Source: a bacterium (lineage in GTDB: Bacteria > Acidobacteriota > Thermoanaerobaculia > Multivoradales > JAHEKO01). From it: a DNA stretch of 59,106 nucleotides. Position numbers and translations under genes: made by a program. The stretch lies in the NCBI GenBank assembly GCA_024224155.1, contig JAAENP010000013.1, positions 1 through 59,106 on the forward strand. Direction: 5' to 3'. A model generated the notes under the pieces. The model was given only the letters and a program-made list of their open reading frames with translations. It made no database searches and was not told the origin of the DNA. Positions 6,319-38,185 of this stretch are shown here, piece after piece. Each line of letters opens with the position of its first letter. Position 1 is the first letter of the stretch.

Positions 6319-8229
6319 TTGTCTAGCGAACAGAACCTCTCCGACCCGGCACTGAGCGTTGCCCTCGCGATGGCGGCCGGGATGTTCTCCCAAGCCGTCG
6401 GGCGGCATCTGCGGATACCCGGAATCGTCATTCTGCTCGCCGCCGGGGTGCTTCTGGGACCCGACGTCCTGGGAATCGTCCAGCCGGATTCGATGGGCGG
6501 CGCTCTGCAAACGCTCGTGGGCTTCGCGGTCGCTGTCATTCTCTTCGAGGGCGGCATGAACCTGAACATCCAGCGCCTGCGGCGCGAGGCCCGCAGCATT
6601 CGGCAGCTGGTGACACTGGGCGCTCTGGTAACGGCCGCGGGCGGGGCTCTCGCCGCCCGATTCATCCTCCGCTGGGAATGGTCGCTGGCGATTCTCTTCG
6701 GCAGTCTGGTAATCGTGACCGGGCCGACAGTGATTACGCCGCTCCTGCGGAGAATCCGACTCAGTCACAGTGTCTCCACGGTGCTCGAGGCCGAAGGCGT
6801 TCTGATCGATGCTATCGGGGCCCTGATCGCGGTCGTCACCCTCGAGGTCGTGCTGGCTCCCACCGCGGGCAACCTGGCTGAAGGAGCGCAGAGTCTCTTC
6901 ATCCGGCTCGGTTCCGGGCTCGTCATGGGTATTGCCGGGGGCGTACTCATTGCGGTCCTGCTGCGCTTCGAGCGACTGATACCCCAGGGCCTTGAAAACG
7001 TCCTCACCCTGTCTCTGATCCTGGTCCTGTTCCAGGTCAGCAACACGCTGTTTGCCGAGAGTGGCATCGTCGCGGTGACCATTGCCGGTCTGGTCGTCGG
7101 CAATATCAAGACCCGACTGCTCAGTGATCTCAAGGAGTTCAAGGAACAGCTCACGATTCTGCTGATCGGCATGCTGTTTGTTCTACTGGCAGCTGACGTG
7201 CGGCTCGAAGAGGTACGCTCGCTCGGTTGGCGCGGAGCACTCACCGTTCTCGCTCTCATGTTGGTCGTCAGACCTGTCAACATCCTCGTCGGCACAATGG
7301 GCTCGGACTTGACCCGGCGCGAAAAGGCGTTTCTGTCGTGGCTCGCGCCCAGGGGTATTGTCGCCGCCGCCGTGGCCTCCCTGTTCGCTCAGGAAATGGC
7401 GGCCGCGGGCCTCCCCGGCGGCAACGAGCTCCGAGCCCTGGTCTTCCTGGTGATCGCCGCGACAGTGCTCATCCAAGGCCTGTCGGGCGGCTGGGTGGCT
7501 CAAGTCCTGGGCGTCCGGCGACCCACCGACCAAGGCTTCCTGATCCTCGGCGCCACGCCGCTGGGCCTGGCGCTGGGCAAGGTCTTCCGCGACAGCGACC
7601 AGGAAGTGGTCTTTATCGACGCGAACCCGGACGCCTGTCGCGCCGCCGAGGCCGAGAACTTCCGCGTTCTTTTCGGCAGCGGCCTGTCCGACTCGATCCT
7701 CTATCGCGCGCAAACCGACAGTCGCGCCGGCGTTCTGGCGGTCACGGACAACGACGAGGTCAACCTGCTTTTCGTGACCAAGGCCCGCAAGGACTTCAAG
7801 ATCCGACAGGCCTGGATGGCCCTGCGTAGCGGCCACACGAAGATAACGGCGGAAATGGTGAAGGAGGCCGGTACCCAGGTTCTGTTCGCACAACCCCGAA
7901 ATCTGGATCTGTGGTCCGTGCGCATCGAGCGCAAGAGCGGCTTCTTGGAAACCTACACCCGGCGGCGGTCCGGGGACCTGACCGCAATCGAGGAGATCGG
8001 CAATCCACCCGATCCCGACAGCGTGCTGATCCCCCTGGCGGTCGCTCGGGGAAGGCACGTTCTGCCCTTCGTCGCCGATCTGAGCTTCAAGAAGAACGAT
8101 CAGCTCTACGCGGTGATCAACCATGAACGCCGCGACGAGGCCGAGGCCTGGCTGGCGCAGATGGGTTGGCGCCGTGAAGGGGACGACGAGATCGAGCTCG
8201 TGGGTTCGGGCGTCCTCGAGCCGGCCTGA
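6319..8229 (+). CDS. Monovalent cation:proton antiporter (CPA family) with C-terminal TrkA-N-like domain
   Basis: This is a 636-residue membrane protein. Residues 1-390 hold about twelve helices of the Na+/H+ or K+/H+ exchanger fold, starting LGPDVLGI and including FEGGMNLN and the intramembrane region VTGPTVITPLL...LEAEGVLIDAIGAL, which supplies the acidic residues expected for transport. Residues about 405-530 form a Rossmann-type regulatory domain (FLILGATPLGLALGKVFRDSDQEVVFIDANP) like TrkA-N/KTN. A short C-terminal domain follows. The start is TTG and no strong ribosome site is visible; an ATG at 6370 is an alternative that would shorten the first helix. The transported ion cannot be settled from sequence. 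Confidence 0.9.
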   Translation: MSSEQNLSDPALSVALAMAAGMFSQAVGRHLRIPGIVILLAAGVLLGPDVLGIVQPDSMGGALQTLVGFAVAVILFEGGMNLNIQRLRREARSIRQLVTLGALVTAAGGALAARFILRWEWSLAILFGSLVIVTGPTVITPLLRRIRLSHSVSTVLEAEGVLIDAIGALIAVVTLEVVLAPTAGNLAEGAQSLFIRLGSGLVMGIAGGVLIAVLLRFERLIPQGLENVLTLSLILVLFQVSNTLFAESGIVAVTIAGLVVGNIKTRLLSDLKEFKEQLTILLIGMLFVLLAADVRLEEVRSLGWRGALTVLALMLVVRPVNILVGTMGSDLTRREKAFLSWLAPRGIVAAAVASLFAQEMAAAGLPGGNELRALVFLVIAATVLIQGLSGGWVAQVLGVRRPTDQGFLILGATPLGLALGKVFRDSDQEVVFIDANPDACRAAEAENFRVLFGSGLSDSILYRAQTDSRAGVLAVTDNDEVNLLFVTKARKDFKIRQAWMALRSGHTKITAEMVKEAGTQVLFAQPRNLDLWSVRIERKSGFLETYTRRRSGDLTAIEEIGNPPDPDSVLIPLAVARGRHVLPFVADLSFKKNDQLYAVINHERRDEAEAWLAQMGWRREGDDEIELVGSGVLEPA

Positions 8230-32515: not shown

Positions 32516-35500
32516 ATGGCGGCTCGTCATCATGGCGGGAGTCGGCGAGACAAAGGCCCGCCCGCTCGGGACTTCGGCTACGGCCTGGAGTGGCTGCGCA
32601 CGTCTCCCGGAGCTCGCAAGGAAAAGGTCAAAGAGCGCTACTATGCCCCGCAAGGCTCGCATCGTGGTCGCCTTCCCTACTTCGAGTTGCACGCGGCCTC
32701 GGCGTTCTCTTTTCTCGAAGGGGGCTCCCTTCCCGAGGATCTGATCGCGCGCGCGGCCGAGCTCGGGCTCGGCGCCGTCGCCCTGGTCGACCGCAACGGG
32801 GTCTATGGCGCGCCCCGTTTCCACCAAGCCGCCCAAAAAGCCGGGATCAAGGCCCTGGTAGGAGCCGAGGTGACCTTGGCGGCGAACGCCCCCAAGGTCA
32901 TTCCGAGCGTAGCGAGGCATCCCTCCAAGCCACCGACAAACACAAACCGAACGGTTGGCGAGAGATCCCTCGCTGCGCTCGGGATGAGTCGGGCAGCTGA
33001 AGCTGCCCGACTCACTCTCCTGGTCGCCAGCCGCACCGGTTACCGCAATCTGTGCAGGCTCTCGACCGCCATGGCGCGCGACCACCCCAAGGGCGAGGCC
33101 GTGGCGAACTGGGAGCTGATCGAACGCTATAGCCGCGGTCTCCACTGCCTGGCGGGTGGACCGCAAGGCTTGATTGCCGACGCCCTGGCTTCAACCGGCC
33201 CCAAAAACGGCAAGTCGCCCGCTCCGGATAGCGCACGGAAGGTTCTGGAACGCCTCCGAGGGCTCTTCCCCGGACGTTTGCACATCGAGATCCAGCGCCA
33301 CCGGCAGCCCCGCCAGGAAGCACGAAACTATTTCCTCCTCGAACAAGCCCGCGCGCATCGTATTCCGATCGTGGCCACCAACGGGGTTCGTTACGCCCGC
33401 CCGGACGATCGCCGGCTCTACGATGTGCTGACCGCGGTTCGGCACCACACCACGCTCGACCAGGCCGGACGGTTGCTCGACGCCAACCGGGAACGCCATC
33501 TCAAAAGCGCCGCGGAGATGGCCGAGTTGTTCGCCGATCTACCCGAAGCCCTGCACCAGACCGTGGAGCTCGCCGAGAGTCTCGACTTCACGCTTTCCGA
33601 CCTCGGTTATCGCTTCCCCGACTATCCCCTGCCACCCGGTGAAACCGAAATGTCGTATCTGCGCCACATCACCTGGAACGAAGCCCGCGCTCGATTCCGA
33701 CCGCTCACCTCGCGCGCGCAAAGACAGATCGAGCACGAGTTGGCGATGATCGAAAGACTCGAACTGGCCGGATACTTCCTGATCGTCTGGGACATCATTC
33801 AGTTCTGCAAGCGCGAGAACATCTTGGCTCAAGGCCGGGGCTCGGCCGCAAACAGCGCCGTCTGCTATGCGCTCTCGATCACCGCGGTCGATCCGGTCAA
33901 GATGGAGCTGCTCTTCGAGCGATTTCTCTCCGAAGAGCGCGGCGAATGGCCGGACATCGATCTCGATCTTCCCTCCGGCGATCAACGCGAGAAGGTCATC
34001 CAGTACGTCTACCGGCGCTACGGACCCCACGGGGCCGCGATGACGGCCAATGTCATCACCTACCGCAATCGCTCGGCCGCCAGGGAAGTGGCCAAGGCCC
34101 TGGGTTTCTCGCTCGAACAACAGAACAAGCTGTCCAAGCAGCTGGGCAGCTGGCACTACGATCTCGTGCGCGGCGACCCCAAGTCGATGGCCGACGAGTT
34201 GAAGGCCGCCGGCTTCGACCCGGACAGCCCGCGGATTCGCCATTTCGCCGAGATGTGGCGTCGCATTCACAATATCCCGCGCCACCTGGGCCAGCATTCC
34301 GGCGGAATGGTGATCGCCGCCGGCCGTCTCGACGAAGTCGTACCGCTCGAGCCGGCGGCGATGGAAGATCGAGTCGTCGTCCAGTGGGACAAGGACGATT
34401 GCGCCGATCTCGGCATCATCAAGGTCGACCTTCTGGGACTGGGCATGCTGCAAGCGCTCGAAGAGGTTATTCCGCTGATCAAAACTCACGAGAACAAGGA
34501 CATCGACCTCGCCCATCTGCCCGCGGATGATCCGGCCACCTACAAGATGCTGCGCGAAGCCGACACGGTCGGCGTCTTTCAGGTCGAAAGCCGCGCCCAG
34601 ATGGCATCGCTACCGCGCAACCAGCCCGAGCGGTTCTATGACCTCGTGATCCAGGTCGCCATCATCCGACCGGGCCCAATTGTCGGCGGCATGGTAAATC
34701 CCTATTTCGAGCGCCGCCTCGGCCGGCAGCCGGTCGAGTACGCCCACCCTTGCCTCGAGCCGATCTTGAAACGCACCCTGGGAGTCCCTATCTTTCAAGA
34801 ACAGATCTTGCGCATCGCCATGGAAGCGGCCGGCTTCTCCGGTGGCGAAGCCGAGGAACTGCGCCGCGCCATGGGCTTCAAGCGCTCGACCGAGCGCATG
34901 CACACGATCGAGCAGAACCTGCGCCAGGGCATGACCGAGCGCGGTATTACCGGCGATACCCAGGACGCGATCGTCAAATCCATCACATCATTCGCTCTCT
35001 ACGGGTTCCCGGAATCGCATGCGGCGAGCTTCGCGCTGATCGCGTACGCCAGCGCGTACCTGAGATGCCATCACCCCGCCGCCTTTTGTGTGGCGCTGCT
35101 CAACGCCTGGCCGATGGGCTTCTATCACCCCGCCACCCTGGTCAAGGACGCCCAGCGGCACGGGGTCGAAGCCAGGCCGGCGGATGTCAACTTCTCGGAC
35201 TGGAAATGCCGCTGCGAAGAGGGCGCCATACGGCTCGGCCTGCGTTACATCCACGGACTGCGCAAGCAATCCGGCGAGAGTATCGAAAATGCTCGAACCA
35301 CCGGGCCGTTCAAGGACGCCGCCGACCTGGCCCGCCGATGCGATCTGCGCGAAGACGAGCTGACTCACCTCGCCGAAGCCGGTGCCCTGGCTTCTCTGGG
35401 GCTCACGCGGCGGCAGGCCCTATGGCAGGTAGCCTGGGAGTCCAAACCCAGCGCGCCTTTGTTTCGAGACGGCGATAGGGAACAAGGCCGCGCGACTTCG

Positions 35501-35929
35501 AGCCCATTGCCGGAGATGTCGGCTATCGAAGAGACCTTCGCGGACTACTCCACTACCGGCATCACGACCGGAGTGCATCCCTTGGCCCATATTCGAAAAA
35601 GCCTCAGCAGGCAGGGGATCCTGCAGACGGCGACGGTGGGAAAGGTCCGCAACGGAGAGAGAGTCCGAACCGCAGGGACGGTCATCGTCCGCCAGCGCCC
35701 GGGGACCGCAAAGGGCGTGCTTTTCATCACCTTGGAAGACGAATCCGGGATGGTGCAAGCCATCGTTCGGCCCGACTTGCTCCGGAAGCACCGCAAGACT
35801 CTGATCGGAAGTCCGGGACTGATCGTCGAAGGAACCGTTCAGCACCGGGACGGCTCGCTTTCGATCCAGGGCGAACGATTCTGGCCTTTACCGGAGATCG
35901 CCCCGACACCCAGCCACGACTTTCGCTAG
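32516..35929 (+). CDS. dnaE2: Error-prone DNA polymerase DnaE2 (ImuC)
   Basis: This is a 1137-residue replicase alpha-like subunit that performs damage-induced mutagenic synthesis with ImuA and ImuB. The PHP domain (about 55-330) starts ELHAASAFSFLEGGSLPEDL. The polymerase core has the catalytic acidic set in WPDIDLDLPSGDQREKV (D480, D482). Fingers, helix-hairpin-helix and OB domains follow, and the C-terminus ends SHDFR, typical of the family. The protein is longer than usual partly because residues about 128-166 are encoded by a palindromic repeat. The N-terminal 50 residues are basic and poorly conserved in appearance, so a later start is possible. Confidence 0.95.
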   Translation: MAARHHGGSRRDKGPPARDFGYGLEWLRTSPGARKEKVKERYYAPQGSHRGRLPYFELHAASAFSFLEGGSLPEDLIARAAELGLGAVALVDRNGVYGAPRFHQAAQKAGIKALVGAEVTLAANAPKVIPSVARHPSKPPTNTNRTVGERSLAALGMSRAAEAARLTLLVASRTGYRNLCRLSTAMARDHPKGEAVANWELIERYSRGLHCLAGGPQGLIADALASTGPKNGKSPAPDSARKVLERLRGLFPGRLHIEIQRHRQPRQEARNYFLLEQARAHRIPIVATNGVRYARPDDRRLYDVLTAVRHHTTLDQAGRLLDANRERHLKSAAEMAELFADLPEALHQTVELAESLDFTLSDLGYRFPDYPLPPGETEMSYLRHITWNEARARFRPLTSRAQRQIEHELAMIERLELAGYFLIVWDIIQFCKRENILAQGRGSAANSAVCYALSITAVDPVKMELLFERFLSEERGEWPDIDLDLPSGDQREKVIQYVYRRYGPHGAAMTANVITYRNRSAAREVAKALGFSLEQQNKLSKQLGSWHYDLVRGDPKSMADELKAAGFDPDSPRIRHFAEMWRRIHNIPRHLGQHSGGMVIAAGRLDEVVPLEPAAMEDRVVVQWDKDDCADLGIIKVDLLGLGMLQALEEVIPLIKTHENKDIDLAHLPADDPATYKMLREADTVGVFQVESRAQMASLPRNQPERFYDLVIQVAIIRPGPIVGGMVNPYFERRLGRQPVEYAHPCLEPILKRTLGVPIFQEQILRIAMEAAGFSGGEAEELRRAMGFKRSTERMHTIEQNLRQGMTERGITGDTQDAIVKSITSFALYGFPESHAASFALIAYASAYLRCHHPAAFCVALLNAWPMGFYHPATLVKDAQRHGVEARPADVNFSDWKCRCEEGAIRLGLRYIHGLRKQSGESIENARTTGPFKDAADLARRCDLREDELTHLAEAGALASLGLTRRQALWQVAWESKPSAPLFRDGDREQGRATSSPLPEMSAIEETFADYSTTGITTGVHPLAHIRKSLSRQGILQTATVGKVRNGERVRTAGTVIVRQRPGTAKGVLFITLEDESGMVQAIVRPDLLRKHRKTLIGSPGLIVEGTVQHRDGSLSIQGERFWPLPEIAPTPSHDFR
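32898..33013 (+). repeat. Palindromic repeat inserted in frame in dnaE2
   Basis: The left arm at 32898-32921 (TCATTCCGAGCGTAGCGAGG...) pairs with 32964-32987, matching at 21 of 24 positions. It is followed by a perfect 13-base inverted repeat (GAGTCGGGCAGCT, 32986-33013). The encoded peptide reads VIPSVARHPSKPPTNTNR... then SLAALGMSRAAEAA. Repeats of this ATTCCGAGCG-AGCGAGG type are widespread in bacterial intergenic DNA. Here the frame stays open through the insert. Confidence 0.85.
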
Positions 35930-36008: not shown

Positions 36009-37076
36009 ATGAGTTTCGTCGGCCGTCTCGATCAGTTCCAACTCGCAGATCTACTGCAGATCGTCGCTTCCAATCGCAAGACCGGCAAGCTCAACCTGAC
36101 ACGCAGCGACGCCGAGGGCATCATCGTCTTTCGCGAGGGCGAGATCGTCTATGCCTCGAGCTCGGCCGCCCGCGAGACGCTCGGGCATCTCCTTCTCTGC
36201 GGCGGCTTGATCTCTCAGGATCAGCTGGTCGAGGCTCTGGAGATTCAACACTCGGACGCAACCGAACAACGCTTGGGCACGATCCTGATCGACGCCGGGC
36301 ACGTCACCTCAAAGGACCTGGAGCAAGTGCTGCGCCAGCAACTGGAAAAGGTCCTGAGCGAGTTTCTGCAATGGCAACAGGGCTTCTTCAAGTTCGAGCC
36401 TTTCGAGCTCATCGACCACGGCGAGATCAGCATCGACACCGGCGACCTCTTGCTCGCCCAGGGGGTCTCACCGGGCGAAGTCCTGGAGGAGCTCGAGGCG
36501 AAGCTCGCCGAAGAAGAGGCAATCGACCTGGACGATCTCAACGCGCAGTCCGGCACTCAGCGGCTCGTCGGTCTCCGGGCCCTGATGGAAGAGATCAGAT
36601 CGCCCGAATTCACGGGCGAAGTGACCTCGGCACTGATCGAGTTCGGCAAGGGCGTGTTCGCCCGCGGCGTGCTGTTTATTCTGAGCCAGGGCAACTTCGT
36701 GAGCATGGGGCACTTCGGCTTCGCAGACGGCGAAGGTCCCGGCCGGGGCAGTCTCAAGCTACCCAAGAACCAGCCTTCGATTCTCTCGCGGGCGGCCGAG
36801 GGCCGGACGACCCAGCGCGGCAAGATGGAGCGGCTCGAATGGAACCTCTACCTGCTGAGCCACTTGGGCGGGATTCAGCCAACCGAGTCCGCGGCCCTGC
36901 CCCTGCTCCTCAACGGCGAGACCATGCTGGTGCTCTATGGCGACAACGCCGGTCACGCCCGCCCGATCGGCAGCCTCGACGACTTCGAGCTGCTCTTGCT
37001 GCAGGCCGGCCTGGCGATGGAAAAACAGCTGCTTGAAAAGCGAATCGAGCAGTTCGAGAAGCTGCGCCGCAGCTAG
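36009..37076 (+). CDS. DUF4388 (PATAN-type) regulatory protein
   Basis: This 355-residue cytoplasmic protein begins MSFVGRLDQFQLADLLQIVASNRKTGKL, the typical opening of DUF4388/PATAN domains found in response-regulator and gliding-motility proteins. A middle helical region (QRLGTILIDAGHVTSKDLEQVLRQQL) resembles the type IV pilus/GspE N-terminal fold. The last 150 residues look like a degenerate GAF-type sensor (GVLFILSQGNFVSMGHFGF...MLVLYGDNAGHARPIGSLDDFELLLLQAGLAME). It may be an adaptor for motility or secretion control. The stop is 12 bases from the convergent lasso-type precursor. Confidence 0.8.
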   Translation: MSFVGRLDQFQLADLLQIVASNRKTGKLNLTRSDAEGIIVFREGEIVYASSSAARETLGHLLLCGGLISQDQLVEALEIQHSDATEQRLGTILIDAGHVTSKDLEQVLRQQLEKVLSEFLQWQQGFFKFEPFELIDHGEISIDTGDLLLAQGVSPGEVLEELEAKLAEEEAIDLDDLNAQSGTQRLVGLRALMEEIRSPEFTGEVTSALIEFGKGVFARGVLFILSQGNFVSMGHFGFADGEGPGRGSLKLPKNQPSILSRAAEGRTTQRGKMERLEWNLYLLSHLGGIQPTESAALPLLLNGETMLVLYGDNAGHARPIGSLDDFELLLLQAGLAMEKQLLEKRIEQFEKLRRS

Positions 37077-37088
37077 CCCGAGGAACGC

Positions 37089-37319
37089 CTAGACGAGAGG
37101 ATTCTGGGAGAACATGTCGCCGCTGTCGCCGACGCCTGGAGAGCCGCCGAGTGTGAGGGTTCGCAGGTCGCCGTGGCGTTCGAGCCTGGGGGACTTGTAG
37201 CGCCGCTTCTCCGATCGAGCGAGGCGCGCAACCGCAAGAGCACCACGGCCGTCCTCCAGCCCGGCCGGACCGGTGCCCCGCGGGTGGCTTACTTTCAATC
37301 GGGGTCTTGCCGGTGACAC
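37089..37319 (-). CDS. Putative orphan lasso-peptide-like RiPP precursor
   Basis: This is a 76-residue peptide with a GTG start preceded by a strong ribosome site (GGAGGAG, about 6 bases away). The end of the leader matches the lasso recognition pattern YxxPxLxxxGxxxxxTx: Y41, P44, L46, G50 and T56 at position -2. The predicted core is GGSPGVGDSGDMFSQNPLV (58-76). Core Gly1 and Asp8 (D65) are correctly placed for an eight-residue macrolactam ring. The leader is unusually long. No lasso cyclase, B1/B2 protease or RRE gene is present in the window, so it is an orphan or is matured in trans. The product and its ring are inference. Confidence 0.65.
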   Translation of the reverse strand: MSPARPRLKVSHPRGTGPAGLEDGRGALAVARLARSEKRRYKSPRLERHGDLRTLTLGGSPGVGDSGDMFSQNPLV

Positions 37320-37506
37320 GTACTCTCCTCCGCCTTCGATTATCGGCGCCGGCCGCAGATCCCGACAGCGGGGAAAACCTGGTTCGAACGTAGGACAAAG
37401 GACGACTCCACCCGTATCAAGAGCAACTCGAACGGGCGCCGGTCCGCCCCGGGCGAGGGGGTACTCGGTCTCACCGAGAACGCGGGCAGATCTGTGCCGC
37501 CGCGCA

Positions 37507-37515
37507 TGCTAGAAT
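37507..37515 (+). promoter_or_regulatory. Extended -10 promoter candidate for the NarL-type regulator
   Basis: TGCTAGAAT is the best match in the window to an extended -10 (TGnTATAAT) and lies 37 bases before the ATG at 37553. No clear -35 is seen, as is common for extended -10 promoters. Confidence 0.45.
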
Positions 37516-37552
37516 CGCGAAAAACCCAGCAATCGACAGGCCGACCCGAGCG

Positions 37553-38185
37553 ATGATCAAAGTCCTTATAGCCGACGACCACAAGATGTTTCGAGACGGG
37601 CTTCGGCGAGTGCTCGAGGACGAGAGCTCGCTGGAAGTCGTGGCCGAGGCCGAGAATGGCCCCGAGGCCCTCGACAAGAGCAGGGAGTTTCAGCCCGACA
37701 TCGTTCTTCTGGACGTCGTCATGCCCGGGCGAGACAGTCTCGAGATCGTCGAAGAGCTGAAGCGGTGGAACCCCGGCATGCGAGTCTTGATGCTGACCTC
37801 CCATTCGGAAGACCAGTACGCTCTGCGTTGTCTGAGAGCTGGCGCCGACGGCTACATGACCAAGATCAACGCCAGCGACGAGCTGATCACCGCAATTCGC
37901 AAGATCCACGGAGGTGGTAAGTACATCAGCGAAGCCCTGGCGGAGCTGCTGGCTCAGAGCATCGGCAGGGACTCGTCCCAAATGCCGCACGAGAGTCTCT
38001 CGGACCGCGAGTTTCAGGTCATGCGCATGATCGGGGACGGCAAGACGGTCTCGGAGATCGCCGACGAGCTCAACCTGAGCGTCAAGACGGTCAGCACCTA
38101 TAGAACCCGAATCCTCGAGAAGACGCAGCTCCGGAACAACGCCGAGATCATGCGCTACGTGCTCGACAACGACCTCATCGACTGA
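37553..38185 (+). CDS. NarL/FixJ-type response regulator
   Basis: This is a 210-residue protein. The receiver domain (1-120) has the acidic pocket (IADDH), phospho-accepting Asp in VLLDVVMPG, the Thr/Ser of LMLTSHS, and a Lys in YMTKINAS. The LuxR-type helix-turn-helix (145-205) reads LSDREFQVMRMIGDGKTVSEIADELNLS followed by VKTVSTYRTRILEK. It has no adjacent kinase gene, so its partner is elsewhere, perhaps one of the kinases at 42-51 kb. It is 37% or so alike by eye to the regulator at 42273-42902; that is an impression, not a calculation. Confidence 0.95.
   Translation: MIKVLIADDHKMFRDGLRRVLEDESSLEVVAEAENGPEALDKSREFQPDIVLLDVVMPGRDSLEIVEELKRWNPGMRVLMLTSHSEDQYALRCLRAGADGYMTKINASDELITAIRKIHGGGKYISEALAELLAQSIGRDSSQMPHESLSDREFQVMRMIGDGKTVSEIADELNLSVKTVSTYRTRILEKTQLRNNAEIMRYVLDNDLID

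Follow-up and report, generated by a model that had tools for sequence, protein, structure and literature searches.

A small acidobacterial gene very likely encodes a lasso peptide precursor whose processing enzymes lie elsewhere in the genome

According to the portion of the published account that is available (PMC10368454), lasso peptide precursors of Bradymonadales have a ring closed between Gly1 and Asp8 and carry Ile at leader position −2, and in one of them Ser3 is phosphorylated by an HPr-kinase-like enzyme; their leader has the same register as that of the gene described here. In Bradymonas sediminis, the same portion of that account places the Bsf system, also with Ile(−2), in one 7.2-kb cluster with an ABC transporter (PMC10368454). 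The gene considered here lies in a 59-kb stretch of DNA (the window, that is, the whole stretch analyzed), which is the entire contig C13 of an acidobacterial assembly (G000; 5.7 Mb, 576 contigs, 96.6% complete). We find it very likely that this small gene encodes a lasso peptide precursor and that its processing enzymes are encoded elsewhere in the genome. No B1, B2 or cyclase gene stands beside it in the 59-kb contig, so that an ordinary clustered lasso set is not what the window holds. The first-pass annotation had already noted that maturation genes are missing from the window, and this proved correct: there was no match at E ≤ 1 to PF13471, PF00733 or PF05402, and tblastn of the lasso-gene set against the window gave nothing at E ≤ 1e-4.

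The reading frame itself had been proposed, with its strand unnamed, as a well-ribosome-bound ORF with a GTG start; it is found on the minus strand behind a Shine-Dalgarno-like sequence (Table 1). Its leader, YKSPRLERHGDLRTLTL, stands in the register Tyr(−17), Leu(−12) and Thr(−2) relative to the core, as described in that annotation, and matches the NCBIfam model NF033521 (lasso_leader_L3) with 23.6 bits (curated cut-off 19, E 3.5e-5), a model that spans just 20 leader positions and is silent on clustering and on the product. A Pfam search of the ORF gave no match. Asp8 of the core falls within positions 7–9, from which a ring to residue 1 can be closed, and the eight-residue Gly1–Asp8 ring envisaged earlier is thus a prediction that the core sequence permits. 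The NF033521 match, a paralog in the same genome (E 1.4e-14) and matches in other genomes together place the ORF beyond chance; judged from its sequence, it is a real gene. No sigma-70-like promoter was found upstream of it, and two terminator-like hairpins are present there on the minus strand, both observations being weak evidence in Acidobacteriota. The polymerase gene listed in Table 1 is one that we take to be of the dnaE2 type. The window itself gives no view of the protease linkage described below, as no gene for a C25 protease was found in it; the best candidate for a C25 remnant (tblastn E 0.10) was rejected as no trace.

Table 1. Features of the window around the precursor gene
Feature	Position	Strand	Details
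Lasso precursor ORF (A gene)	37089..37319	minus	76 aa, GTG start, stop TAG 37089-37091
Shine-Dalgarno-like GGAGGAGAG	37323..37331	minus	GGAGG ends 7 nt before GTG; read from sequence
Leader end, 17 residues, conserved	37149..37199	minus	YxxPxL at −17 to −12, Thr at −2
Core GGSPGVGDSGDMFSQNPLV, 19 residues	37092..37148	minus	Gly1 37146-37148, Ser3 37140-37142, Asp8 37125-37127
DUF4388 protein, convergent neighbor	36009..37076	plus	orthologue in G001 80% identical, beside syntenic precursor
Presumed dnaE2-type polymerase, synteny marker	32516..35929	plus	Pfam DNA_pol3_alpha; 82% identical in G001:C170
Gap of 233 bp, precursor to divergent LuxR-type response regulator (37553-38185, plus)	37320..37552		

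The first-pass annotation had regarded the gene as an orphan, perhaps matured in trans or part of a dispersed family, and had suggested searching the whole genome for cyclase, B1 and B2 genes and for other precursors. Such a search returned candidates for all of these, scattered over three other contigs. On C118 there is a paralogous precursor, 50% identical to the window ORF, which scores 14.2 bits in one search and 17.0 in another with NF033521 (below the cut-off of 19). It adjoins an asparagine-synthetase-like cyclase gene, whose product scores 177.5 with the lasso cyclase model (below the cut-off of 525), and an HPrK-like gene with weak matches to ScmC (20 bits, cut-off 125) and HprK_rel_B (15.1, cut-off 200). 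A B2 protease encoded on C26 (NF033537, 78 bits, cut-off 33) is the only B2-type protease above the Pfam cut-off in G000, and its neighbors look unrelated by eye. Four PqqD-like genes exceed the Pfam cut-off in this genome, and the lone PqqD-type B1 on C348 was the top one of the four for 10 of 10 B1s from other clusters; these B1s had themselves been located using the G000 PqqDs as queries, so B1s unlike the latter would be missed. The best NCBIfam model for the C348 protein is a lasso PqqD (58.9 bits, under the cut-off of 80), and relatives of this B1 are present in two other members of the genus, G001 and G002. Homologues of B1, B2 and cyclase are thus all present in G000 and, if they belong to one pathway together with the window precursor, its parts are spread over C13, C118, C26 and C348. 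The same genome holds a second lasso-like set on C470 (L027, 4265–7119), consisting of an HPrK-like gene, a cyclase-like gene and a 58-aa precursor-like ORF whose leader contains WKPPTL and which reaches 16.9 bits with the rhodolasso model (cut-off 30). Two further pairs of PqqD and HPrK-like genes, on C73 (L080) and C283 (L081), are accompanied by neither a cyclase match nor a precursor motif and perhaps represent other peptide-maturation systems.

Homologues of the precursor were also found in relatives, for which the first-pass annotation had suggested a search with the leader. Neither a lack of homologues nor a lack of lasso machinery in the genome, two outcomes by which that annotation would have been refuted, was thus observed. 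At E ≤ 0.01 the window ORF matched 32 of the 147 genomes searched, its own included, though many of the weaker matches are not precursors. A set of 33 distinct precursors was assembled from 39 rows of a six-frame motif scan by removing eight rows judged by eye to be antisense or unrelated (L025 −14944, L072 +18241, L079 +2144, L094 −949, L128 −10504, L132 +12235, L146 −1075 and window +34089) and adding L123 and L129, which appeared once the tail-length limit was widened; three further rows (L173 +2107, L174 −8300 and L175 −11110) were dropped. The set omits the matches in G023, G031 and G110 and weaker ones without the motif, and a homologue in G038:C42 with a stop inside is not counted. Two precursors without Thr(−2), read by eye, are also uncounted: one in G008, with no C25 gene in its stretch, and one in G044, with a C25 gene nearby. 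Excluded as well were two tandem precursors at 6461–6695 of locus L174 (G037, contig C25; core GRPNL..DDACDC), found through a B2 search, which lie beside B1, B2 and cyclase genes in a plain lasso set lacking a C25 protease. The core in G139 was set in register by hand, and in G013 no precursor was seen beside the cyclase.

Position 8 of the core is occupied by Asp or Glu in 31 of the 33 precursors (16 Asp, 15 Glu) and the remaining two have Asp9, while elsewhere among core positions 1–16 an acidic residue occurs in at most 3 of 33 at a given position. Position 3 is Ser or Thr in 30. The leader register, the curated model, the acidic residue at position 8 and the presence of homologues in complete lasso sets all support the reading of the window ORF as a lasso-type precursor. 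As for gene neighborhoods, a C25 protease gene and a cyclase gene each occur within 10 kb of 27 of the 33 precursors, an HPrK-like gene near 21, PqqD near 11 and B2 near 10, counts for which the flanks are often cut by contig ends; with the four omitted precursors (those of L174, G008 and G044) added, C25 linkage becomes 28 of 37. All of C25, cyclase, HPrK-like, B1 and B2 genes are found within 10 kb of eight precursors, and the window precursor has none of C25, cyclase, HPrK-like, PqqD and B2 genes within that distance. The complete gene order is C25, cyclase, precursor, HPrK-like, B1, B2; in G000:C118 and G001:C176 the precursor precedes the cyclase and neither B1 nor B2 is present. A scan of named genomes found 16 loci, 14 of them with a C25 match; as alignment A1 was too diverse, the scan used the closer set A2, and the loci found therefore share the A2 motif. 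No C25 match occurred in a control of 17 stretches (204 kb, window included) from G000 and relatives that had been fetched for other genes.

Precursors and processing genes are also found apart in other members of the order. In G020 and G041, the B1–B2 pair is on a different contig from the precursor (the contigs of G041 being short). In G038 (contamination 9%), a cyclase gene and an HPrK-like one share contig C166, where no precursor was seen, and contigs C168 and C42 carry C25-linked precursors with no cyclase in the available flanks. By inference, this splitting in three genomes supports maturation in trans. The C118 precursor with its adjacent cyclase gene, the unlinked B1 and B2 genes of G000 and the relatives without a nearby cyclase point the same way, lending support to the earlier idea of an orphan served in trans or of a dispersed family. 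We consider it most likely that the window ORF is an intact lasso precursor on which enzymes encoded at dispersed sites act in trans. In such a pathway, the PqqD-type B1 of C348 would bind the YxxPxL part of the leader, Ser3, present in the window core, may receive a phosphate from the HPrK-like protein of C118, the B2 protease of C26 would cut after Leu(−1), and the C118 cyclase would join the amine of Gly1 to Asp8, presumably with threading of the tail. The predicted [M+H]+ of the dehydrated core is 1802.801, and 1882.768 with a phosphate added. The lasso product might then act together with a probably secreted PorU-like C25 protease, the copy encoded on C118.

Comparison within the genus bears on this reading in both directions. 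In the sister species G001, a precursor occupies the same place in the same orientation beside the DUF4388 and dnaE2-type genes, and both precursors of G001 pass NF033521 (25.2 and 19.5 bits). At the DNA level, homology extends, at 75.8% over 297 columns, from the end of the DUF4388 gene into the precursor, with none beyond; directly upstream of the syntenic precursor, G001 has a C25 protease gene that overlaps its start by ATGA. Over the 26 codons common to the window ORF and that of G001:C170, pS is 0.458 and pN 0.107 (Fisher p 0.0014 with rounded counts), the silent distance being the lowest of six pairs compared. The low pN relative to pS suggests past constraint; it gives no date for any loss of a C25 partner, and the constraint over these codons may predate such a loss. 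G001, which is 97% complete, carries the orthologous orphan, and no B2 was found in it at E ≤ 0.001, although the other 16 of 17 genomes in the same search have one; this absence counts against maturation in trans. So does the third genus member searched, G002, in which the DUF4388 gene is present with no precursor seen beside it and a C25-precursor-cyclase set lies at another site. The missing promoter, the hairpins and the sub-cut-off scores of the C118 cyclase and paralog weigh on the same side. At the G002 site (L082, contig C13), a short intergenic repeat, GTAACGCCGTAGAC..CTGCCAAAT, was seen by eye in two or more copies after the DUF4388 gene, where the precursor would stand. As a separate observation, the dnaE2-type gene of the window is interrupted in frame, at about 32891–33001, by some 37 extra residues that are missing from the G001 orthologue. 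Inverted repeats seen by eye in the DNA of this insertion make it resemble a palindromic element lodged within a gene, and neither the window nor 15 stretches of the same genome yielded a second copy.

These comparisons also frame the main rival explanation, which we judge less likely: the precursor may have been stranded when its C25 partner at this site was lost, and may now be silent or useless while its frame is still unbroken. The window copy lacks the C25 gene that lies within 10 kb of most family members and directly upstream of the precursor in the sister species, and no promoter match precedes it. Furthermore, the in-frame stop of the G038:C42 homologue indicates that such precursor copies do decay. 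However, the frame of the window ORF is intact, its ribosome site is strong, the ring and leader residues are conserved, and pN is low compared with pS. We favor an intact precursor matured in trans.

The C25 gene of C118 is the only one found in G000; its product combines nine SdrD_B stretches with a C25 domain (192.5 bits, cut-off 23) at the C-terminus. All 32 lasso-side C25 domains retain the catalytic His and Cys. The linked protease is probably secreted, as suggested by the SdrD_B-type repeats and, by eye, by the signal-like start of the G107 protein. A structural model of the C-terminal 690 residues of the C118 protein, built with 19 relatives, reached pLDDT 86.9 and pTM 0.84. In a structure search, gingipain R was best on the protease domain (Z 38.9), and PorU was the one row covering model residues 7–690 (Z 20.3, rmsd 6.7, 554 aligned); PorU also ranked first in a further comparison. 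For the N-terminal part, folds beyond the matches listed may fit as well. The linked C25 domains thus appear, in the modeled structure, to be gingipain/PorU-like in fold. Since the fold match spans the model but the sequence score with the PorU model NF033707 (113.3 bits) is far under the cut-off of 420, we use the name PorU-like and not PorU.

In a C25 tree of 61 rows, the 32 domains from lasso loci are split by one branch (support 100/100) from 29 others from relatives, the latter taken from 30 loci picked for high Pfam scores and not at random. Domains on the lasso side come from Acidobacteriota, Chloroflexota and Pseudomonadota. The lasso label was assigned by locus (32 rows from 30 loci) and includes the motif-missed L077, L079, L163, L168 and L170; L171 and L127_2 form long branches. 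Two of the other rows, L148 and L149, have both a cyclase and an HPrK-like gene in their vicinity and point in the opposite direction. L152 and L114 were filtered out of the tree; downstream of L114, a C25 gene (G002:C81), no precursor was seen. Viewed from the C25 side, the linkage with lasso genes is not general: C25 genes occur in 53 of 98 relatives, and 30 C25 loci fetched from relatives with flanks of about 1.5 kb showed no cyclase, and two of these loci showed an HPrK-like gene. Within the genus, four of five C25 genes adjoin a precursor.

The equal linkage to C25 and to cyclase genes leads to a second rival, which seems improbable to us. The lasso-like leader might serve another end, the peptide being cut but unthreaded, or acting as a linear regulator or propeptide-like partner of the C25 protease. 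Five loci (G001:C170, G038:C168, G032:C76, G032:C380 and G051b) have a C25 gene but no cyclase within 10 kb, some of their flanks being cut by contig ends. On the other hand, the exchange of Asp and Glu at position 8 is what a macrolactam ring requires, and a cyclase is after all close to most of the precursors. Finally, a chance open frame in GC-rich DNA, such as the numerous long antisense frames in the window might suggest, is hardly credible in view of the curated model match, the paralog, the syntenic orthologue and the 33-member family.

A wider picture can be offered tentatively, as a possibility that we hold with less than even confidence. Lasso peptides and PorU-like C25 proteases may form a co-evolved secreted pair in three phyla, with the lasso peptide as inhibitor, activator or sorting substrate; in some lineages multi-copy precursors would rely on shared enzymes, and the window copy would be a free-standing supplier. 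The association of a single C25 protease clade with a single lasso subfamily across three phyla suggests that a lasso peptide has a native partner here. Should the scattered parts cooperate, leader recognition would replace gene linkage, and a free-standing precursor of this kind escapes mining methods that start from a clustered cyclase. A lasso–C25 link was named in no title or abstract start among the open-licence matches listed, the matches on lasso peptides with gingipain or with C25 looked unrelated, and the available part of a 2026 review (PMC13352647) has no mention of C25, gingipain, Acidobacter, orphan or in trans.

With the phosphorylated lasso peptide BsfA, as far as the available portion of its description goes (PMC10368454), the system described here shares YxxPxL at −17 to −12, the Gly1–Asp8 ring (predicted here) and Ser3, conserved in BsfA and matched here by Ser3 or Thr3 in the great majority of precursors. 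Separate B1 and B2 proteins and an HPrK-like kinase are likewise common to both, being represented here by homologues, for the kinase a weakly matching one (PMC10368454). Unlike Bsf, as described in the same portion (PMC10368454), the present system has Thr(−2), its genes are scattered in the genome of the window, and most of the related precursors have a C25 protease nearby. Like members of NF033521, the window leader scores above the cut-off of that model, whereas the C118 paralog falls below it. The linked protease has, in its modeled structure, the C25 fold of gingipains and of PorU, the sortase of type IX secretion, and it has their His–Cys dyad; it differs from PorU in its low score with the PorU model and in the SdrD_B repeats of the C118 protein.
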